Positions 1-8,647 of a stretch of 8,647 bases of DNA are shown in pieces. The notes beneath the pieces are model-generated. The model was not told the origin of the DNA and did not search any database. It saw only the letters and a list, made by a program, of their open reading frames with translations. Source of the stretch: Candidatus Parcubacteria bacterium (lineage in GTDB: Bacteria > Patescibacteriota > Minisyncoccia > Phycocordibacterales > UBA1006). The first letter of the stretch is position 1. The number at the start of each line of letters is the position of its first letter. Position numbers and translations under genes: made by a program. The stretch spans positions 1 to 8,647 of the forward strand of contig JALVJP010000074.1 of assembly GCA_027028225.1 (NCBI GenBank), read 5' to 3'.

Positions 1-1
1 A

Positions 2-2290
2 TTGATAAATAACATACAGAATCCGGAGAAACTCATTCTCGATGAGATGTATGACCCATCAACGAGGGGAAAGTATTCATTTGCTGAACTTCGCGCAAAA
101 CTTCAAGAAGCAAGAGAGCACAACAAGATGTTTGAAGAGGTGAAGGAACAACTCACACTCCTTAAGAAACAGAAAGAGGAGCTCTTTTCCGCTCGCTACA
201 ATTTCCTCAAAAAAACAACAGGAACGGCATACGATGACACTTACCTACAAAAAATAGACAGAGCGGAACAACTCATTTCACAAAAGCGAGCATTCTTGGA
301 GAACAACGAAGCAACATGGAAATTTGTTCGTATGGCAGAGCTACAAGAGTATCAAGAACAACTTACTCGTGGCTATGTAGAAACTCCTTCTCGTCTCCAT
401 ATGAAAGAGAAACTCTCCAGTCTCTTGAGCGCACACGAACACATTTTCCTTGAGGGAGATTCTGGAACGGGAAAAACACAACTTTTGCGAAATCTCGTGC
501 GAACACTTGAAGGATATGAACCGGATGTGGTAGTGTGTTCCGATCAAACGAAAATCACGGAACTTCTCGGGAGAGACAGCTTACGCTCAGAGAATGGAGC
601 GACAGTAAGTGTCTTCAAAGAGGGAATGCTTGTTCGTGCAATGGTGGAAGGAAAGAAAATCATTTTTGATGAGTTTAACAATATGGATTCCAATACACGA
701 TTCGCTCTCAAACCATTCTATACGCTTAAACCGGGAGATACTTTTAAACTCCAACAAGACGGAGAGAGGGAATTTACCGTTGCGGAAGGTTTTGGATTTC
801 TCGCAACAGGAAACCTCCCATCAGAAAAACATCCTGAACGCAAACCGCTTGATCCTGCAGAAACGCGAGAATTTAAGATGCCACACTTAGACCACCTTCC
901 AAAGGAAGAAGTCTATGATTTATTACTTGTTGCATCAATGCGTAAAGACGGATCAATTCCTTTCTCATTAGAAGAAGCGCAAGAGATGCTCAAGCGACTT
1001 GCGGAAGCAATTAAAGATGTTCACCACGCATATGAGGGAGTCGGTAACTTCTATGCAGATGTGGTAAAAAAAGAAAAAGCTCTCTTAAAGAAAGCAGTTC
1101 TCGATCCCGGAGAATACATTTCATGGATTCGTGATTACAAAAAGCAGACAGAAAAATCTTTTGGAGTTTTCCTCTCGGAAAAAATCGCACAGTTTGCCTC
1201 AAAAGGTGATTTCCCTGAGAGTGACAGAAACATTCTCTTTAAGATTTTTGCGACACGCGGACTATTAGACGGTATTGACCCATCTCCTTTCTCACTCGAT
1301 ACGAGAGAAGCGGAAGCACTTGGCTGGAAAGCACAACAAGAGTATACAAAACAGGAAGGACTACGAAATCTTGATTTGGAACAGATAGCTGAACTTGATC
1401 CTTGGAATACACGTATGAAAAAGAAATCTGCATCAATCGATGACTTTATCGCAAAAAATGCACCTCACGAAAAAGTAACTTCGGTTTTTGAAACAGGAGC
1501 AACAACTATGGAAGAAGCCCTCGAAATCATGGGAGAATCCCAATTCCTTGGACCACAAGACATTGAAAACATCTTCGGCTTCACTCCGGAAACCATCCCT
1601 TCAATTCCATTCTCTCCGGAACGCCTTAAAGAAGCGAAAGAGAGAGGAGAACAACTCATTCTCTATGTAGATACAAAAGGAAATGGAAGTCCGTTCACTA
1701 TGAAAGACATTGAAAACATAAGAAATAACAAAACCTCAAACGGGGACACACTCCTATGGAATACAAATCAAGGAGATAATTGGTTTAATAACGAAACAGC
1801 ACTCCACGAGGAAAGCCCCCGCCTCGCATGGCGTCTCACGACACCTGAAATCATTCCAAACTCAACAGACAAGAACTACATCGAACAGATAGAAGAGAGC
1901 ATCAACTATCTCCAAAATGAAACCTTTGCACACAGCGATATGCCACAAACCTACCTTGATGCGATAGAACAGTTCAAAAACAAAAAAGCTGAATTAGAAG
2001 AACTCATGGAAAACGACTGGAAACAAGCGAGCGAAGAACTCGCAAAACTCGACATCGTGCAACTCACTCACGAACGCCTCTCTGAGATACTCTACCGCCT
2101 CACCCTCAATGAAGCAAAGACGGGAACAAAATCTCTCAATTCAATAATATACACATGGTCATCTTCTCGGTCTTCCTCTGCGAGGCTTGCGGTGCTCGGG
2201 TACTTTGTTTCGGATGGGGCGTATGTGAGCGCGAGCGAGCCGTCGGATCGGAACGGGTACCTTGGTTTGTGTATCTCTGTAGGTGAATAA
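2..2290 (+). CDS. MoxR-like AAA+ ATPase with C-terminal DGR variable domain (5' end probably outside window)
   Basis: Large protein, 762 codons visible. The frame is open to the window edge; the only start near it is a TTG at base 2, so the N-terminus is probably missing (first ATG is residue 16). Residues ~25-125 are charged and helical, likely coiled coil. Residues ~130-310 form an AAA+ module of the MoxR/dynein-related type: Walker A GDSGTGKT (152-159), Walker B IIFDE (220-224), and a sensor-1-like ATGN ending at N271. Residues ~310-480 are helical. Around 550-615 lies a small domain (LILYVDTKG, then a WF/WRLT segment), followed by another helical stretch (~625-705). The last ~45 residues, beginning YTWSSSRSS (717-725) and ending LGLCISVGE, form the DGR-diversified domain. 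MoxR ATPases act as chaperone-like remodelers, often with VWA proteins; the partner and role here are unknown. The ATPase and DGR-target calls are firm, the physiological role is not. Confidence 0.9.
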   Translation: MINNIQNPEKLILDEMYDPSTRGKYSFAELRAKLQEAREHNKMFEEVKEQLTLLKKQKEELFSARYNFLKKTTGTAYDDTYLQKIDRAEQLISQKRAFLENNEATWKFVRMAELQEYQEQLTRGYVETPSRLHMKEKLSSLLSAHEHIFLEGDSGTGKTQLLRNLVRTLEGYEPDVVVCSDQTKITELLGRDSLRSENGATVSVFKEGMLVRAMVEGKKIIFDEFNNMDSNTRFALKPFYTLKPGDTFKLQQDGEREFTVAEGFGFLATGNLPSEKHPERKPLDPAETREFKMPHLDHLPKEEVYDLLLVASMRKDGSIPFSLEEAQEMLKRLAEAIKDVHHAYEGVGNFYADVVKKEKALLKKAVLDPGEYISWIRDYKKQTEKSFGVFLSEKIAQFASKGDFPESDRNILFKIFATRGLLDGIDPSPFSLDTREAEALGWKAQQEYTKQEGLRNLDLEQIAELDPWNTRMKKKSASIDDFIAKNAPHEKVTSVFETGATTMEEALEIMGESQFLGPQDIENIFGFTPETIPSIPFSPERLKEAKERGEQLILYVDTKGNGSPFTMKDIENIRNNKTSNGDTLLWNTNQGDNWFNNETALHEESPRLAWRLTTPEIIPNSTDKNYIEQIEESINYLQNETFAHSDMPQTYLDAIEQFKNKKAELEELMENDWKQASEELAKLDIVQLTHERLSEILYRLTLNEAKTGTKSLNSIIYTWSSSRSSSARLAVLGYFVSDGAYVSASEPSDRNGYLGLCISVGE
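2166..2268 (+). repeat. DGR variable repeat (VR), 3' end of the ATPase gene
   Basis: This 103-bp segment aligns without gaps to 2545-2647, with 90 identities and 13 differences. Eleven differences fall where the other copy has A (here G at 2184, 2192, 2213, 2229, 2235, 2237, 2246; T at 2201, 2208, 2222, 2258). The two others are G to T at 2215 and T to C at 2254. The copy encodes residues ~723-756. Changed residues, template to this copy: K to R728, M to V731, N to Y734, D to V736, K to D738, N to Y741, N to S743, N to S745, K to E746, N to D749, N to Y753; N751 is a silent change. Position at the 3' end of a gene and the adenine bias match DGR variable repeats, whose products usually adopt a C-type-lectin-like fold (fold inferred here). 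Confidence 0.92.
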
Positions 2291-2320
2291 TGGATAATGA
2301 ACTATGAATCATGGATGCGA

Positions 2321-2339
2321 GCAACTCGGAGAGAGTTGC
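2321..2339 (+). other. Hairpin/cruciform candidate downstream of the VR
   Basis: A perfect 7-bp inverted repeat GCAACTC / GAGTTGC with loop GGAGA lies 31 bp after the stop codon of the VR gene. It has no T-tract, so it is not a normal intrinsic terminator. In characterised DGRs a hairpin or cruciform just 3' of the VR promotes target recognition, often with a GRNA-type loop; the GAGA within this loop is compatible. Its distance from the VR end (~52 bp) is longer than in the phage model, so the assignment is tentative. Confidence 0.5.
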
Positions 2340-2363
2340 GAGCTGGAGGAACATCGCTATAAT
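2336..2363 (+). promoter_or_regulatory. Candidate promoter for the template-repeat RNA
   Basis: A perfect TATAAT -10 element (2358-2363) sits 16 bp downstream of TTGCGA (2336-2341), which matches 4 of 6 bases of the TTGACA -35 consensus. It points toward the TR, and no open reading frame of note follows before the terminator at 2700-2727. A start near 2370 would give a transcript of ~360 nt spanning the TR. The -35 overlaps the right arm of the hairpin at 2321-2339, which could couple the two. Confidence 0.5.
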
Positions 2364-2381
2364 ATAAATGTGGGTATTGCA

Positions 2382-2401
2382 GGTATGTATACGTATATAC
2401 C
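2382..2401 (+). other. Small hairpin with UACG loop in the TR leader
   Basis: GGTATGTA (2382-2389) can pair with TATATACC (2394-2401), 8 bp with one G-U pair, around the tetraloop TACG. As RNA this is a UNCG-class stable tetraloop. No T-tract follows, so it is not a terminator. It would lie near the 5' end of the inferred TR transcript. Confidence 0.4.
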
Positions 2402-2418
2402 TCCCCAAATATTACTGC

Positions 2419-2535
2419 TTGAAATACATTAAGGTGAGATTTTGAAAGAAAATGTATGACACCGCATATTTATACATACTAAAACCTTCAATATACATTG
2501 ATTGTTTGGTAGGTGCCACGGATGATGTATTTCAA
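2419..2535 (+). other. Long-range 11-bp stem upstream of the TR
   Basis: TTGAAATACAT at 2419-2429 is the exact reverse complement of ATGTATTTCAA at 2525-2535, enclosing ~95 nt that end 9 nt before the TR. The right arm alternatively folds on itself as the palindrome ATGTATT-TC-AATACAT (2525-2540). The enclosed segment has further ATGTAT/ATACAT pairs (2452-2457 with 2472-2477; another ATACAT at 2493-2498). A/T-rich pairing can arise by chance, but 11 contiguous pairs beside the TR fits a structured template-RNA leader. Confidence 0.45.
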
Positions 2536-2544
2536 TACATAAAG

Positions 2545-2647
2545 CTCGGTCTTCCTCTGCGAAGCTTGCGATGCTCGGGAACTTTGATTCGAAGGGGGCG
2601 AATGTGAACGCGAACAAGCCGTCGAATCGGAATGGGAACCTTGGTTT
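2545..2647 (+). repeat. DGR template repeat (TR), non-coding
   Basis: Template partner of the VR at 2166-2268. It contains 22 adenines; 11 of them are substituted in the VR, against 2 of the other 81 bases. Read in the VR frame it gives a typical TR pattern rich in Asn and Lys codons (GNF, GANVNANKPSNRNGNLGF), so that A mutation gives Tyr, Ser, Asp and so on without stops. It is not part of a second gene: that frame has TGA at 2523-2525 and TAG at 2649-2651. It is GC-rich (56 of 103) compared with the A/T-rich DNA on both sides. It lies 276 bp after the VR on the same strand, the usual VR-then-TR order. Similarity past the repeat end (2648 onward versus 2269 onward) is weak, possibly the IMH*/IMH difference. 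Confidence 0.92.
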
Positions 2648-2680
2648 TTAGGTCTCCGAAATGGGTATTATGCCAAATTG

Positions 2681-2727
2681 TTTTATCATCATTAATGATA
2701 AAAAAGACACATTTTTGTGTCTTTTTT
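2681..2727. terminator. Bidirectional intrinsic terminator between TR and gdhA
   Basis: A 12-bp perfect stem AAAAAAGACACA (2700-2711) / TGTGTCTTTTTT (2716-2727) with loop TTTT. It ends in T-runs on both strands, so it can stop the rightward TR transcript and the leftward gdhA transcript, whose stop is 27 bp away. A second hairpin just before it, TTTTATCAT (2681-2689) / ATGATAAAA (2695-2703), shares four bases with the first, so the two are partly mutually exclusive. Confidence 0.88.
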
Positions 2728-2753
2728 CTTTGAAGAAGAAATGAGTGCTAATG

Positions 2754-4097
2754 TTAAAGAATTCCTTGTTCATACATTGCTTTTGCAACTTTTTCGAAAG
2801 AGGCTATGTTTGCACCTTTCATATAGTTTATATACCCATCTTCTTCTTTTCCATATGCTACACAGGTATCGTGGATGGTCTTCATAATATCTCGAAGTTT
2901 TTTATCAACTTCCTCTCGTGTCCATCCGTAGCGAAGGGAGTTCTGTGTCATCTCAAGCCCTGAAGTCGCAACGCCACCAGCATTGGAAGCTTTTCCTGGG
3001 GAATAGAGAATTTTGTTTTTAACGAAAATATTAATTGCTTCTGGGGTAGATGGCATATTTGCTCCTTCTGTTACGCAGAGAACGCCATTTGCAACGAGCG
3101 CTTCTGCATCATCTTTCTGTATTTCATTTTGGGTTGCACACGGGAGAGCAATATCTGCTTCTCGTTTCCACGGTTTCTCTCCTTCATGGTATTCTGCGTC
3201 TGGGTAGCGCTCCAGATACTCTTTAATGCGTCCACGCTTTCCATTTTTTATTTCCATGATGAATGCGAGTTTTTCTTCGTCAATTCCTTCACTATCATAA
3301 ATGTATCCACTTGAATCTGACATTGTGAGCACTTTTGCTCCTTTTTGAATTGCCTTTTCTGTTGCGTATTGAGCGACATTTCCAGACCCAGAAATGAGTA
3401 CACGCTTTCCTTCAAGTGTTTCCCCCTTCGTTGCGAGCATTTCTTCAGTAAAGTAGACAACTCCGTATCCTGTTGCTTCTGGTCGGATGAGGGATCCACC
3501 CCATGCGACACCCTTTCCGGTGAGCACTCCAGTAAATTCATTTTTGAGTTTTTTGTAGTATCCAAAGAGGTATCCAATTTCCCGAGCACCTACTCCAATA
3601 TCTCCTGCAGGAACATCTGTGTTGGCTCCAATATGACGGAAGAGCTCGCTCATAAATGCTTGTGAGAAGCGCATTATTTCTCCATCCGATTTTCCTTTTG
3701 GGTTGAAATCAGAACCTCCTTTTCCTCCCCCCATTGGGAGGGTAGTAAGTGCGTTTTTAAATGTTTGTTCAAAGCCAAGAAACTTGAGAATTGAGAGATT
3801 TACGCTTGGATGGAAACGGAGACCTCCCTTATAGGGACCAATTGCAGAATTGAATTGCACGCGGTATCCGCGATTGATTTGTATGTTCCCCTCATCGTCT
3901 GTCCACGCAACGCGGAATTGTATGACTCGTTCTGGTTCTGTCATTCGTTCGAGAATTTTCTTTTCTACGTACTCATGTCGCTGTTCGTTTACGTAGGGGA
4001 TGACACTTTCCGCAACCTCTTCTACTGCTTGAATAAATTCCGGTTCGTGAGGATTTCGCTCCTCGACCCATTTCATAAATTGATCTTTGTCTATCAT
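2754..4097 (-). CDS. gdhA: NADP-type hexameric glutamate dehydrogenase
   Basis: Catalyses reversible reductive amination of 2-oxoglutarate with ammonium to L-glutamate in the cytoplasm, the low-affinity ammonium-assimilation route. The 447 residues match the usual length of bacterial GdhA. Motifs seen: glutamate-binding GPYKGGLRFHPSVN (87-100), catalytic-lysine loop PMGGGKGGSDFNPKGKSDGE (121-140; K126), DVPAGDIGVGAREIG (161-175; D166 the expected catalytic Asp), Rossmann GSGNVA (237-242) followed by SDSSG (260-264). The Ser-containing end of that strand and overall similarity to E. coli-type enzymes favour NADP(H); cofactor choice is inferred. The gene is monocistronic: its own extended -10 lies just upstream, and a terminator follows. 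No glutamate synthase or glutamine synthetase gene is adjacent. The ATG start gives the full N-terminal helical region and lies 9 nt from the -10, implying a nearly leaderless mRNA. Confidence 0.96.
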   Translation of the reverse strand: MIDKDQFMKWVEERNPHEPEFIQAVEEVAESVIPYVNEQRHEYVEKKILERMTEPERVIQFRVAWTDDEGNIQINRGYRVQFNSAIGPYKGGLRFHPSVNLSILKFLGFEQTFKNALTTLPMGGGKGGSDFNPKGKSDGEIMRFSQAFMSELFRHIGANTDVPAGDIGVGAREIGYLFGYYKKLKNEFTGVLTGKGVAWGGSLIRPEATGYGVVYFTEEMLATKGETLEGKRVLISGSGNVAQYATEKAIQKGAKVLTMSDSSGYIYDSEGIDEEKLAFIMEIKNGKRGRIKEYLERYPDAEYHEGEKPWKREADIALPCATQNEIQKDDAEALVANGVLCVTEGANMPSTPEAINIFVKNKILYSPGKASNAGGVATSGLEMTQNSLRYGWTREEVDKKLRDIMKTIHDTCVAYGKEEDGYINYMKGANIASFEKVAKAMYEQGIL

Positions 4098-4106
4098 ACA
4101 GAACTA

Positions 4107-4115
4107 ATTGTAACA
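4107..4115 (-). promoter_or_regulatory. Extended -10 promoter of gdhA
   Basis: On the minus strand TGT-TACAAT, an extended -10 (TGn plus a one-mismatch TATAAT), ends 9 nt before the gdhA ATG. No good -35 is seen 17 bp upstream, as expected for extended -10 promoters. A start 6-7 nt past the -10 leaves a leader of about 2-3 nt, and no Shine-Dalgarno sequence is visible, so translation would be nearly leaderless. Confidence 0.5.
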
Positions 4116-4161
4116 CATTTCAAAGAGTTTCCTTATATTTATTTTTCAAGGAATTCTTTTG

Positions 4162-4170
4162 TGTTAATAT
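4162..4170 (+). promoter_or_regulatory. Extended -10 promoter of parB
   Basis: TGT-TAATAT ends 6 nt before the parB ATG at 4177, so a normal start site would fall on or next to the A of the ATG. No Shine-Dalgarno sequence or convincing -35 is seen. It lies 46 bp from the divergent gdhA promoter in a 79-bp intergenic gap. Confidence 0.5.
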
Positions 4171-4176
4171 AAGCAT

Positions 4177-5799
4177 ATGTCATCATCGGTATACCAAGGA
4201 AACTCTATTTTTTGGATAGAAATTCAGAAAATTCGTCCAAATTCTTTTCAGCCAAGAAAGGAATTTGATGAACAAGCGTTGAAAGAACTTGCGGAATCTA
4301 TTCGACAATATGGAATTCTCCAGCCTCTTGTTGTTACAAGAAAAGAAGAGCAAAAGCCTAATGGAGGAATGTCTGTTTACTACGAACTCATCGCAGGGGA
4401 GCGGCGTCTTCGTGCGGCAAAGATAGCAGGACTTGAACAAGTTCCAGTCATTATCCGTAACGACACAGATGATAACCTTCGGCTCGAACTCGCAATTATA
4501 GAGAACCTTCAACGAGAAGATTTAAATCCAATTGACCGTGCACTTGCGTTTGAGCAACTCCATAAGCAATTTGGACTCACTCATACGGAAATTGGAAAGA
4601 GAATGGGGAGGAGTCGTGTCTATGTATCAAACACGCTCCGAATTCTTTCTCTTTCGGAGGAGATAAAACTTGGACTCATTTCAGGGAAAATCAATGAGGG
4701 GCATACACGACCGCTCCTCATGCTCTCAGAGAGACCAGAAGAGCAAAAGAAACTCTATGAAGAGATTATTCTCAGAAAGCTCTCAGTGCGAGATGCAGAG
4801 AAGATTGCACGGAGGATTGCTCAAGACAAGGTAAGGAAGAAGAAATTCATCGTAGATCCGCGTATTCGTGAGTATGAGAAACGCCTCTCAGAGAATCTTG
4901 GAACGCGTGTGCATATTGAGCAGAAAGAAAAAGGAGGAAAGATTCTCATCGATTACTTCAGTATGGAGGATTTGGAGAAAATTCTTGATTCTCTTAAGGG
5001 AGAGGTTTCAGATTCTCTTCATAATGGTAATTTTTCCACTCACACAGAAGAGAACTCTGCAACAGAAACAGATGAAGGTGTCATACTTCAGAAATCTACC
5101 GCAAAGAATAATATAGATGATGATAGGGGGGATGCTGAAGAGAGAAAAGAAAATACATTTTCTGAAGAAATTCTCCGTTTCGCAGAGAGCCACGGAATTG
5201 AACTTACTCCACATCACATAGAGGAGGAAAAAGGAATTGATACAACTGATTCTCTTCAACAGGATCCGTCTTACCGAAGAGAGGTGTATCAAAAAGAAGA
5301 CGTAGAGGAACTATCTCCTTCGCCCGCTGATGGGTATCGGATACACAGAGAAACTCATAGTTATGAAGAAGATGACTATTCAAATAGAGGAGAGGGACGA
5401 ACTTCAGGGAAAGATATTCCACCTGCTGATCGAGATTACCAAGAGGATTCCCCTCTAGGAGAGAAATACTCTCTTGAGAGGAGAATAGAGTATTATCCAC
5501 CGCAAAATGAATTATCGAGAGATAGATGGGGAAATTCTGACGAGAGGGATCCTCAGATTTATGTAAGCAATGATAGGAATACTATTTATGAAGTGAGAGA
5601 CGAAGATTCTTATATACCTCATATTGCTCAACAGAAAAGAACATTCGAGGAAAATTTTTCTCAAAATTTGAGAGGAAGTGGGTATGATGAACAAGGGAAT
5701 GACGATTATCAGCAGCAGAGTTACTCTTCACAGAATAACTATGGATCTTATTTTTCTCGAGAGGGTGATGATGAGGATACTTGGAATTCCTCCGCGTAG
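4177..5799 (+). CDS. parB: ParB family chromosome-partitioning protein with long acidic C-terminal tail
   Basis: ParB binds parS, loads as a CTP-dependent clamp and spreads on DNA to drive origin segregation, normally with the ATPase ParA. Domains: N-terminal ParB/Srx-like domain with IRPNSFQPRKEFDEQALKEL (19-38) and the CTP-binding motif GERRLRA (74-80); central KorB-type DNA-binding region with ENLQREDLNPIDRA (109-122) and a helix-turn-helix around THTEIGKRMGRSRVYVS (135-151); C-terminal dimerisation segment LGTRVHI...GGKILIDYFSMEDLEKIL (241-270). This completes a normal ParB in ~275 residues. The remaining ~265 are hydrophilic, acidic, rich in Asp, Glu, Ser, Tyr and Gln, with no visible domain, so probably disordered. 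No parA gene or parS-like palindrome (TGTTTCACGTGAAACA type) was seen in the window. Identification is firm; the tail's function is unknown. Confidence 0.94.
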   Translation: MSSSVYQGNSIFWIEIQKIRPNSFQPRKEFDEQALKELAESIRQYGILQPLVVTRKEEQKPNGGMSVYYELIAGERRLRAAKIAGLEQVPVIIRNDTDDNLRLELAIIENLQREDLNPIDRALAFEQLHKQFGLTHTEIGKRMGRSRVYVSNTLRILSLSEEIKLGLISGKINEGHTRPLLMLSERPEEQKKLYEEIILRKLSVRDAEKIARRIAQDKVRKKKFIVDPRIREYEKRLSENLGTRVHIEQKEKGGKILIDYFSMEDLEKILDSLKGEVSDSLHNGNFSTHTEENSATETDEGVILQKSTAKNNIDDDRGDAEERKENTFSEEILRFAESHGIELTPHHIEEEKGIDTTDSLQQDPSYRREVYQKEDVEELSPSPADGYRIHRETHSYEEDDYSNRGEGRTSGKDIPPADRDYQEDSPLGEKYSLERRIEYYPPQNELSRDRWGNSDERDPQIYVSNDRNTIYEVRDEDSYIPHIAQQKRTFEENFSQNLRGSGYDEQGNDDYQQQSYSSQNNYGSYFSREGDDEDTWNSSA

Positions 5800-5801
5800 T
5801 A

Positions 5802-5831
5802 TTGACATTTATTCATCGCTTAGTATATAAT
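5802..5831 (+). promoter_or_regulatory. Near-consensus sigma70-type promoter
   Basis: Perfect TTGACA (5802-5807) and perfect TATAAT (5826-5831) with an 18-bp spacer, starting 2 bp after the parB stop. Predicted start near 5838, giving a ~30-nt leader before the ATG at 5869. A second -10-like TGT-TATATA is at 5838-5846. This is the best -35/-10 pair in the window and suggests the downstream gene is strongly and independently expressed. Confidence 0.8.
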
Positions 5832-5868
5832 AGTAACTGTTATATAAGTAATTAACATTCTTAGTATT

Positions 5869-7455
5869 ATGATGAAAGAAGGAAATTTTAACAAAGCAAA
5901 TATAAAAGGAGAGAATGAAATAAAGATAAAAGCAGCTGTTGATAAGGTAATGAATGAATATGTAAATGGAAAAAATGAGCGTGCGGAAGGCGACATAAAT
6001 AGAATTCTTGATAGAGTTAGGAATATTGATGGAGAATTAGGAGAGATTGGAGGTATTATTGAAGAGCATGATGGGGATGTGAGTTTCATGGGGAAGCTCA
6101 GAAAAGGCGTAAGAGGAAAATTTAGGACAATTGTTGCTTCACTTGTATTTATTCTTAATACCATTGGAGCGAAGGCAGCAGGAAATGAAAAGGTGGAAAG
6201 TAATCTTAAACCGGGTATGGAGAAAGAAATTTTTACTGATGCAGATGAAAAGGTTAGCTCTGAAGCGAAAGTTCTCACAAAGGAGGATTTTATTGGAAGT
6301 GATAAAGATAAGAAAGGTGAAAAAACACATGAGGGTATGGAAAAGACGAATACTCTCGATATTACGGAAAGTTTCCCTGATGGGGTTGGTCGTCTCAACA
6401 AAGAACAGGGAGAAAGATTGAAAGAAACTATTAATGAATTTTTAAACAGTCTTAGTGAGGAGCAACTTCATAGAATTTTTAGCGGGGAAGAAGAAATTGT
6501 TATTAGACCTCAAACAAGTGATAAACCGGTTCGCTTGATTGAAGACCCTCTTTTTAAAGATGGTGTTCGCAATAACGAACAGCTTGCAGAGGTTCGTGGA
6601 GAGGATGCAGCTTACTATACCGCAAAGGCAATTGAAAAATTTGCAAAAGATATTGGATATGAAGGTGAGCTTCATCTAAATATGGATATTGTTATTCCTC
6701 ATATTTCAGGAAAAGAGATTGGAGTTGGTGAGGATAACAAGCGAAAAGTTACTATTGAAATCGAATCATCTATCAGGAAGGATAATGTTATAGAAAAGTT
6801 TAAGAATAACCTCGACTTCATTATCGTAGATAGGACAGGATCGACCGACGAAGATAGACTTACTATCGATAAACAAATTGAAGAAGTAAAGAAAGTGAAT
6901 CCGGATGTCAAGGTATTTGATTTGAAATATGAGGAGAGAGAATTTGAAGGGAGAGTTGCACAATACGAGAAGCCTGCTGAGAGTCTTGAGCAAGCACTTG
7001 ATTATCTCAAAAAGATGAAGGAGGATGGAAAGAAGCTTAAGGGGATGGGTCTTATCGTAGGAGTTGATGAAACATCTACTGATAATTTTAATGATAGGTA
7101 TTATCCAAAAGGAGGTATCAAAAAGGTTCAAGAAAATCGCTTTAATAAAATTAAGAAAGGGTATGATTCTATTAATGAGAAAGTAATTGCTGTTGTTCCA
7201 AAGATGAAAGGTTCTGAATCGGTTTCAGTGGTTAATTTTAATAAACATTACGATTTATATGTTGTAGGAGAAGGAAGTAAGGGTAAGATTTTCACAGATG
7301 CTCGTGAGGGTAGTACAGAAGCTGGATTAGCATTGAAAGCAGCGAAACTCGATGAGGGAAGGAGTATTTCTTATGAGTTGAAGAATAATGGAGATGTTGT
7401 TATTAAACATGTTAATCTTAATAATCTCATAGATAGATACGAAGTAAGTAAGTAG
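5869..7455 (+). CDS. Membrane-anchored or secreted protein of unknown function with OmpA-like and VWA-like segments
   Basis: I do not recognise this 528-residue protein as a named family. Residues 1-84 are charged and cytoplasmic-looking. A hydrophobic stretch at ~86-100 (TIVASLVFILNTIG) is followed by AKAAG, which could be a membrane anchor or a signal peptide with a long n-region; the rest would then be outside. Residues ~110-170 are a hydrophilic linker. Around 231-300, NNEQLAEVRGEDAAYYTAKA followed by a strand ending KRKVTIEIE resembles OmpA-like peptidoglycan-binding domains (weak). Around 314-400, DFIIVDRTGST resembles a VWA strand with MIDAS (DxTxS variant), then SLEQALDYLKK and GLIVGVDETSTDN fit later VWA elements (moderate). 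Start: two ATGs in tandem at 5869 and 5872, neither with a Shine-Dalgarno sequence. It has its own strong promoter and terminator. The gene is coding with high confidence; the domain calls are tentative. Confidence 0.8.
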   Translation: MMKEGNFNKANIKGENEIKIKAAVDKVMNEYVNGKNERAEGDINRILDRVRNIDGELGEIGGIIEEHDGDVSFMGKLRKGVRGKFRTIVASLVFILNTIGAKAAGNEKVESNLKPGMEKEIFTDADEKVSSEAKVLTKEDFIGSDKDKKGEKTHEGMEKTNTLDITESFPDGVGRLNKEQGERLKETINEFLNSLSEEQLHRIFSGEEEIVIRPQTSDKPVRLIEDPLFKDGVRNNEQLAEVRGEDAAYYTAKAIEKFAKDIGYEGELHLNMDIVIPHISGKEIGVGEDNKRKVTIEIESSIRKDNVIEKFKNNLDFIIVDRTGSTDEDRLTIDKQIEEVKKVNPDVKVFDLKYEEREFEGRVAQYEKPAESLEQALDYLKKMKEDGKKLKGMGLIVGVDETSTDNFNDRYYPKGGIKKVQENRFNKIKKGYDSINEKVIAVVPKMKGSESVSVVNFNKHYDLYVVGEGSKGKIFTDAREGSTEAGLALKAAKLDEGRSISYELKNNGDVVIKHVNLNNLIDRYEVSK

Positions 7456-7459
7456 AAAT

Positions 7460-7485
7460 AAAACGCATGATTAATGCGTTTTTTT
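7460..7485. terminator. Intrinsic terminator, probably bidirectional
   Basis: A 9-bp stem AAAACGCAT (7460-7468) / ATGCGTTTT (7474-7482) with loop GATTA and a T-run to 7485, 4 bp after the stop of the 528-residue gene. On the minus strand the same stem ends in TTTT followed by ATTTCT, so it can also end the convergent carboxypeptidase transcript. Confidence 0.85.
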
Positions 7486-7498
7486 AAAGTCCTCTGTT

Positions 7499-8470
7499 TT
7501 ACCTTGGCAAGTAACTCACATATTTTTTAAGATAGTCGAGTATCTTTCTCGTGTCACTCTCACGTGTATCTGATTGGAGGATAATTATCGCGATATCTCG
7601 CTCCTTATCGTTTGCGAGCTTAACATGGTAGTAGCCAATACTTGTATGTTTTGCTACATCAGTGTATCCAGTCTTTCCCCCAAAAAATCCATTAAGGTTG
7701 TGAGATCTATTTATATTTACCCATTGGTAGTTATTGATACTTGCTTTTTTAAGAGAAGAGATTCGTATAAGTTGTGGATAGCGTTTCCAAGTTTCTCTCA
7801 TCATCGTGAATAGTTCTCGTGCTGTTGAGGTATTGTATTGAGAGAGACCTGTCGGATCATCGAAGTGTGTTTTTTCGAGCTTATACTCCTTTGCGAGAGC
7901 ATTCATCCTATTTACAAACCAGAGACGATTTCTCTGCCGCGCTATAAGTTCTGCTGCATCATTTGATGATACGAGGAGGAGCGGGTAGAAGAGTTCTCTC
8001 ACTGTAAGTGTATCATTCTTCTTGAGGTGAGCCCTGTTACCAGGTACACGAAGCCCTTCACTATCTACTTTCACAAGTTCGTTTGGTTTGAGGTAGTTAA
8101 TTGCCGTAAGTGCGGTGAAATATTTTGTAATAGATGCGATTGGGTAGGGTGTCTGTGATTTTCGCTCGAAGATAATTTTTCCACTTTGCAAATCACCTAT
8201 AAGAAAACTTCTTGATCTTATATCATTCAACTTTCCCATATTTTGGAGGATGTACTTCCCGTTAAAATCTTTTTGTCGATCACCAAAAAAAGGTTTTGCA
8301 ACAAGATTATCTCTCTTCACTACATTTACAACATCTTCTTGTGTAAAAAGAGGAGTTCCTTGGAGACCAGATGTGATAGAGAATAGAGAAAACGCTCCTA
8401 TAAAAAGGGAGAAGGTGAGTGCAAATTCTGCAAAATGTCGTGTGCGTTTTTCTCTTTGGTAGTATTTCAT
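7499..8470 (-). CDS. D-alanyl-D-alanine carboxypeptidase, peptidase S11 family (DacA/PBP5-like)
   Basis: Serine penicillin-binding-type enzyme that trims the terminal D-Ala of peptidoglycan pentapeptides outside the cytoplasmic membrane. All three active-site motifs are present: SxxK as SITK (113-116), SxN as SSN (168-170) and KTG as GGKTGYT (264-270). FDDPTGLS (203-210) is also typical of the family. Residues ~13-36 (FAEFALTFSLFIGAFSLFS) are a signal anchor or signal peptide after a basic N-terminus. After the catalytic domain only ~50 residues remain, so the C-terminal beta domain and amphipathic membrane anchor of PBP5 are absent, consistent with N-terminal anchoring. It lies 42 bp after the RNase R-like gene on the same strand, so co-transcription is possible, although an extended -10 lies in the gap. 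AAGGAAG sits only 1 nt before the ATG, too close for a normal ribosome-binding site. Confidence 0.95.
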   Translation of the reverse strand: MKYYQREKRTRHFAEFALTFSLFIGAFSLFSITSGLQGTPLFTQEDVVNVVKRDNLVAKPFFGDRQKDFNGKYILQNMGKLNDIRSRSFLIGDLQSGKIIFERKSQTPYPIASITKYFTALTAINYLKPNELVKVDSEGLRVPGNRAHLKKNDTLTVRELFYPLLLVSSNDAAELIARQRNRLWFVNRMNALAKEYKLEKTHFDDPTGLSQYNTSTARELFTMMRETWKRYPQLIRISSLKKASINNYQWVNINRSHNLNGFFGGKTGYTDVAKHTSIGYYHVKLANDKERDIAIIILQSDTRESDTRKILDYLKKYVSYLPR

Positions 8471-8487
8471 ACTTCCTTGTTGTTTTT

Positions 8488-8496
8488 AATGTAACA
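8488..8496 (-). promoter_or_regulatory. Candidate extended -10 upstream of the carboxypeptidase gene
   Basis: On the minus strand TGT-TACATT ends 17 nt before the ATG and predicts a leader of ~10 nt. No clear -35 is seen. It has the same TGTTA core as the elements before gdhA and parB. Confidence 0.35.
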
Positions 8497-8512
8497 CTTT
8501 TATAGGATATTG

Positions 8513-8647
8513 CTAGTTTCCTTTTTTTATTTCTTTATCTACGAGAATGTAATCAATGAGCTGTTTCTGTAAATCAATATGTTTAATTTTCATTTTGATT
8601 CTATCTCCAAGTTTGAAAATATGTTTCGTTCGTTTCCCTCGTATTGT
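8513..8647 (-). CDS. rnr: RNase R/RNase II-family 3'-5' exoribonuclease, C-terminal fragment (window edge)
   Basis: Forty-four codons and a TAG stop are visible; the rest lies beyond the right edge. The peptide GKRTKHIFKLGDRIKMKIKH followed by IDLQKQLIDYILVD matches the end of the S1 RNA-binding domain that closes RNase R proteins (typical pattern: GxRTxxxFxLGDxVxVxVxxVDLxxxxIDFxLV). RNase R degrades structured RNA processively from the 3' end. The short tail after the S1 domain (KEIKKGN) lacks the long basic extension of the E. coli enzyme. Family assignment rests on this short stretch alone, and another S1-ended RNB-family member cannot be excluded. Confidence 0.75.
   Translation of the reverse strand, partial: TIRGKRTKHIFKLGDRIKMKIKHIDLQKQLIDYILVDKEIKKGN

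Follow-up and report, generated by a model that had tools for sequence, protein, structure and literature searches.

A likely diversity-generating retroelement repeat pair in a Parcubacteria bacterium, with avd and RT probably lost in a predicted deletion that joined the template repeat to an IS256-type insertion-sequence end

Results

The window, by which we mean the whole 8647-nt stretch analysed, comes from the genome of a Candidatus Parcubacteria bacterium, where it covers positions 1-8647 of the 9547-base contig C74. The assembly comprises 557 kb in 113 contigs and is 80.8% complete, with 5.7% contamination. An ATPase gene occupies the left part of the window and a glutamate dehydrogenase gene (gdh) converges on it, with a pair of repeats and the end of an insertion sequence (IS) at and between their 3' ends. 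The features are as follows:

2..2290, + strand: gene for an AAA_5 (dynein-related / MoxR-CobS-like) ATPase, with the putative variable repeat at its 3' end (ORF; Pfam AAA_5, E 7e-13; full-length copy, P0001)
2166..2268, + strand: putative variable repeat (VR), 103 nt, 13 differences from the template repeat, 11 of them opposite a template A
2321..2339, + strand: possible stem-loop on the VR side, 52 nt beyond the VR and with a stem of 7 bp (hairpin scan; suggestive only, as 10/28 relative rows have none within 90 nt of the VR)
2545..2647, + strand: putative template repeat (TR), its final 8 nt common to the TR and the IS end
2640..2647, + strand: microhomology between TR and IS end, 8 nt, CTTGGTTT (sequence comparison)
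2640..2674, + strand: one end of an insertion sequence of the IS256 type, with its outer tip at 2674 and the IS body absent (35/35 nt identical to L007 2381-2415)
2675..2753, + strand: intergenic DNA reaching to the gdh end, which holds two AT-rich hairpins and is too short for avd or RT (sequence, hairpin scan and fold)
2754..4097, - strand: gdh (Pfam ELFV_dehydrog, E 4e-92), a convergent neighbour outside the putative retroelement

A search of the window against Rfam gave no match at E <= 1. Further along, at 5869-7455 and following a parB gene, lies an ORF of 528 aa for which Pfam gave no match at a cut-off.

The ATPase ORF encodes 762 aa in the window, compared to 793 aa in P0001, the contig end having cut off about 31 residues at the 5' end. 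Full-length relatives with 48-54% identity are present in metagenomes. By sequence, the protein has only weak ATPase matches in the PDB; in the model of P0001 the final 50 residues have pLDDT values of roughly 40-53, too low to look there by fold for the C-type-lectin-like domain associated with DGRs, and no Pfam domain falls in the VR region. A scan of the genome collection with the target gave one locus (29% identity over a short stretch), and its profile gave two loci in the viral collection (26% identity); both results were set aside. Two pairs of near-identical metagenomic proteins differ most towards the C-terminal end. For P0002 and P0003, residue differences number 3/600 in the first part, 38/152 in the middle and 14/45 in the last 45 residues, and for P0004 and P0005 the corresponding values are 15/591, 17/162 and 16/45. 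Since the middle part also differs, the variation in these pairs is not confined to the VR. In relative G193 (L069 2-3706), the retroelement target ATPase gene is preceded by a vWA gene of the CobT-like kind and by a small gene lacking a Pfam match, a pair of the MoxR/CobS-vWA type in which the ATPase carries the VR. No CobT_C (vWA) partner was detected in the window's own genome at E <= 1.

The original prediction described two 103-nt direct repeats, at 2166-2268 and 2545-2647, that differ at 13 sites, 11 of these being adenines in the second copy, and read them as the VR and TR of a diversity-generating retroelement (DGR). Our recount gave the same numbers. The first copy lies in the 3' end of the ATPase ORF, as claimed, and the second in DNA without a convincing gene, crossed by short mechanical ORFs at 2429-2617 (-) and 2452-2607 (+). 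Changes affect 11/22 adenines of the TR but only 2/81 of its other bases (Fisher p = 2.2e-7), the two exceptions being G to T (TR position 2594) and T to C (TR position 2633). Twelve codons differ between the repeats, 11 of them nonsynonymously and one synonymously, with no stop, in line with the 11 replacements predicted; AAC, AAT or AAG is the template codon in 10 of these 12 cases, which bears out the reported preponderance of these triplets. Seven of the 11 changed adenines occupy codon position 1 and four occupy position 2; third positions in the TR are never A. The repeats are separated by 276 nt, placing the direct copies 379 nt apart. Thus, a nearly identical TR and VR differ mainly at TR adenines (11/13), and the VR ends a coding gene with a non-coding TR nearby. 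In DGRs, at least 75% of TR/VR mismatches are normally at A, according to a survey (PMC8144416).

To place the pair in context, we searched 297 genomes (the window's own included) with the target protein at E <= 0.001, which gave matches in 26, of which 25 are relatives. An RVT_1 match is present in 20 of these 25, and in 6 (G012, G128, G145, G193, G282 and G291) target and RT are no more than about 3 kb apart on the same contig. An A-biased VR/TR pair was found in those six and in none of the rest of the 16 target loci scanned. We also assembled a panel of 41 loci from the same family and order, most of them chosen for an RT, so that their RT content is partly a matter of selection. VR/TR rows were obtained for 28 loci; 12 further RT loci gave no A-biased pair, and the remaining one held a TR already counted. 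The 28 rows represent 26 distinct TRs (two TRs appear twice) in 18 genomes. Adenines account for 442/454 of the VR/TR mismatches in these rows, a proportion biased upward because the detector requires at least 75% of mismatches at A. In 28/28 rows the VR precedes the TR, which is followed by an avd profile match (opposite strand) and an RT, the RT starting 346-529 nt 3' of the TR. For one panel relative, Pfam identifies these genes as bAvd and RVT_1. VR-TR gaps range from 266 to 413 nt, apart from two longer ones (605 and 1377 nt), and the 276 nt of the window is within the usual range. Ten relative genomes contain a target homologue apart from the scanned TR; in the 22 TR-locus comparisons that these allow, involving 12 TRs, no trans VR match was seen (non-A identity 0.40-0.53).

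Two relatives merit separate mention. In G291 (L070 3130-5872 and its reverse), a single TR serves two adjacent target genes that have one VR apiece; in each VR, 15/15 differences are at A. G015, which is 98% complete and has no RVT_1, A2 (see below) or bAvd match, encodes a 298-aa protein with a VR-like C-terminus (L072 3584-4480). No A-biased repeat pair was seen in the 9 kb of this locus that were scanned, and the gene is perhaps a further DGR target without machinery.

The machinery seen in relatives has no counterpart at the window locus, where the 106 nt from the TR end (2647) to the gdh end (2754) contain neither avd nor RT. No match to PF00078 (RVT_1) was found in the window or in the 557-kb assembly (81% complete). 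A second profile, A2, was built from four related RTs and run on 24 genomes; it matched 11 of these, and gave no match at E <= 1 in the window's own 81%-complete genome. Among 11 genomes of the same genus, four have a strong DGR-type RT (E below 1e-56), three of which were also covered by the panel analysis, and two more have weaker A2 matches. The Avd accessory protein is found in most DGRs, though not all. A bAvd (PF22296) search was negative at E <= 0.1 in the own genome and gave matches in G010 and G012. Judging from these profile searches and the completeness of the assembly, an RT elsewhere in the genome is unlikely. The search for further VRs of the window TR, which the original prediction had proposed, likewise found none in the assembly. 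One caveat is that a sister genome carrying this locus in intact form did not turn up (the best full-length genome match has 37% identity), and hence it is from distant relatives that we deduce that avd and RT once stood here.

The region just 3' of the TR is unusual as well. When we folded the 55 nt that follow each of the 26 distinct panel TRs, 20 had z <= -2 (mean energy -16.3 kcal/mol). The corresponding values for the window are -7.0 kcal/mol and z -0.2, although one relative locus, L066, has a TR flank fold as weak as this. VR/TR identity stops at the IS end, with no IMH-like continuation of the TR and no stable hairpin. In phage BPP-1, recruitment of the RT complex and priming of the cDNA both depend on the spacer 3' of the TR, as reported in PMC12875486.

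The nature of the sequence that follows the TR in the window became apparent when we used the TR plus flank as a query against the own genome. In addition to the VR, contig C23 gave two matches, both only to the 3' end of this query, and these proved to be the two inverted ends of a 1110-bp element (L007 2381-3490). Its transposase belongs to the IS256 family, variant Zn-binding type (NCBIfam NF048019, 182.9 bits versus a cut-off of 150), and an 8-bp target duplication, GAAATCCA, flanks it on both sides. The C23 copy therefore has the transposase, inverted ends and target duplication of an IS256-type element, whereas the window has one 35-nt end only. Allowing up to three mismatches, the IS end occurs at three sites in the assembled genome, and the viral collection gave no match to it. 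On C23 (L007 2095-4001), the IS splits a GDPD (glycerophosphodiester phosphodiesterase) gene. A 340-bp piece of the same IS (96% identity) is present in same-genus genome G001 (L120 634-973), also cut within the transposase gene.

The orientation of the IS end is informative. Its tip, at 2674, points outward and the TR lies on its inner side. We considered a simple IS insertion beside the TR and ruled it out, because insertion would place the IS tip, not the inner side, against the TR. TR and IS end overlap by the 8 nt of CTTGGTTT, a feature absent from the original prediction. To gauge this overlap, we counted joins in the same orientation between the IS and the VR region (165 nt), the latter standing in for the lost TR flank. 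Just 9 of 180,604 joins have 8 nt in common, all with one word, and none has more; the joint thus sits on the longest common word. A microhomology-mediated deletion would be the natural reading of the TR-IS joint.

Discussion

We conclude that the repeats are likely the VR and TR of a DGR whose avd and RT were probably lost in a predicted deletion that fused the TR 3' end with one end of an IS of the IS256 type, and we put the probability of this reading at roughly three in four. A DGR origin of the pair is very likely, given the adenine pattern, the spacing and the intact relatives with the same layout, and in this respect the original prediction stands. A working DGR is not supported, as searches of the window and of the assembled genome turned up neither RT nor avd and an IS end lies 3' of the TR. 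Rewriting of the end of the ATPase gene has probably stopped in this bacterium.

The following sequence of events would account for the locus. An ordinary DGR, like those of the relatives, would have rewritten the AAA ATPase gene at its 3' end. An IS256-type element would then have landed downstream, either between the RT gene and gdh or within the DGR. Subsequent recombination at CTTGGTTT, a word found both at the TR 3' end and 35 nt into the IS end, would have removed the TR hairpin, avd, RT and most of the IS. If avd and RT were once here and left by this deletion route, the VR would now be frozen. The nearest relative with gdh, G001, counts against such a loss: its similarity to the window begins at 2760 (1276 nt at 84% DNA identity), and it has other sequence, with no DGR, at the gdh flank.

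How long ago could this have happened? Non-A differences number 2/81 in the window and 12/2459 in the panel of intact DGRs (p = 0.07). Because non-A divergence does not clearly exceed the panel value, prolonged decay is not strongly indicated, and as the IS end is also unchanged over 35 nt, the machinery may have been lost recently. A more speculative notion, and one we think doubtful, is that the IS acted as an off-switch of hypermutation. Its end would carry the same word as the initiation end of the template, allowing the enzymes to be lost in one step; the lineage would have kept the receptor variant then current in the ATPase gene, and the fossil template would record the last unedited state.

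Other explanations must be weighed against this reading. It is improbable that the pair is still in use, with an RT and Avd encoded on an unassembled piece copying the TR and rewriting the VR in trans. Such an arrangement would fit the fact that 19% of the genome may be missing, the DGR-type RTs in other genomes of the genus and the scarcity of non-A drift (2/81), and the two hairpins beyond the IS tip could terminate a TR transcript. However, no RT or avd was found in 557 kb, and no trans VR match was seen in the ten relative genomes with a target homologue apart from the scanned TR. Moreover, the TR has lost its 3' flank, which by analogy with BPP-1 (PMC12875486) may be needed for recruiting the RT complex and priming cDNA. 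Alternatively, a working DGR could have been disguised by an assembler that misjoined the TR to the IS end. The IS is repeated in the genome (three end sites) and the assembly is fragmented (113 contigs); still, we give this little credence, since the TR side and the IS have only 8 nt in common at the joint. To our knowledge, assemblers use no word length as short as 8 nt. The join between the IS end and gdh has up to 35 nt in common with C23 and is hence the less secure side, but the IS copy on C23 itself has matching 8-bp duplications on both sides.

That the TR is cargo of the IS, in the form of a transposon carrying a VR/TR cassette with its other end beyond the contig start, strikes us as far-fetched. 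The outward-pointing tip with the TR on the inner side is as this would have it, and the cassette is absent 3' of gdh in G001. Yet the window has one IS end only, the whole known IS (1110 bp) has no TR, and the joint falls at an 8-nt word that is also common to the VR, as expected from recombination. Finally, two direct copies 379 nt apart might simply reflect duplication of the gene end followed by drift. The original prediction had already judged this unfit, and we reject it as practically untenable: the differences fall on A of one copy only (p = 2e-7), and relatives show the same layout together with an RT.

DGR surveys, as described in PMC8144416, detect systems by their RT, and targets without an RT will therefore be missed. 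The window locus would represent a molecular scar of RT loss in a patescibacterium, with a TR that ends inside an IS end across an 8-nt overlap. With the TR still in place, the VR as last edited can be set beside its template, and non-A differences could serve to date the loss of the machinery. The locus also links hypermutation to the MoxR/CobS-like ATPase family, relatives of which adjoin a vWA gene.

The closest known systems are the DGRs of Patescibacteria/CPR (clade 2 of Roux et al. 2021, PMC8144416), with which the window shares a VR at the 3' end of the target, a non-coding TR, mismatches at A, spacing and a related target. This likeness rests on repeats, layout and target, as the window has no RT to place in a DGR clade. 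In the intact relatives the TR is followed by avd and RT, whereas the window lacks RT, avd and the TR hairpin and has an IS end instead. The phage BPP-1 DGR has in principle the same parts (avd, TR, RT, VR and an IMH with a stem-loop; PMC12875486), of which avd, the TR spacer and RT are not present in the window. The C23 IS is of the IS256 variant Zn-binding type (NF048019), and its end is what lies at the TR, the window keeping 35 nt of it.

As to remnants, the excerpted text of PMC7517822 describes remnant TR-VR homology without a nearby RT at all3226 of Anabaena PCC 7120, the occurrence of transposases close to genes of DGRs and, in Anabaena sp. 90, a solitary RT with transposases on both sides. 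Like the window, all3226 retains a VR/TR trace without an RT; it differs in belonging to a cyanobacterium, in its target, and in that no TR-IS end joint is described for it in that text. Nor did we find a description of such a joint in those portions of the open-access literature on DGR remnants, IS or RT loss that were available. DGR remnants without an RT are already known, and to these the window adds an informative scar, the joint between TR and IS.
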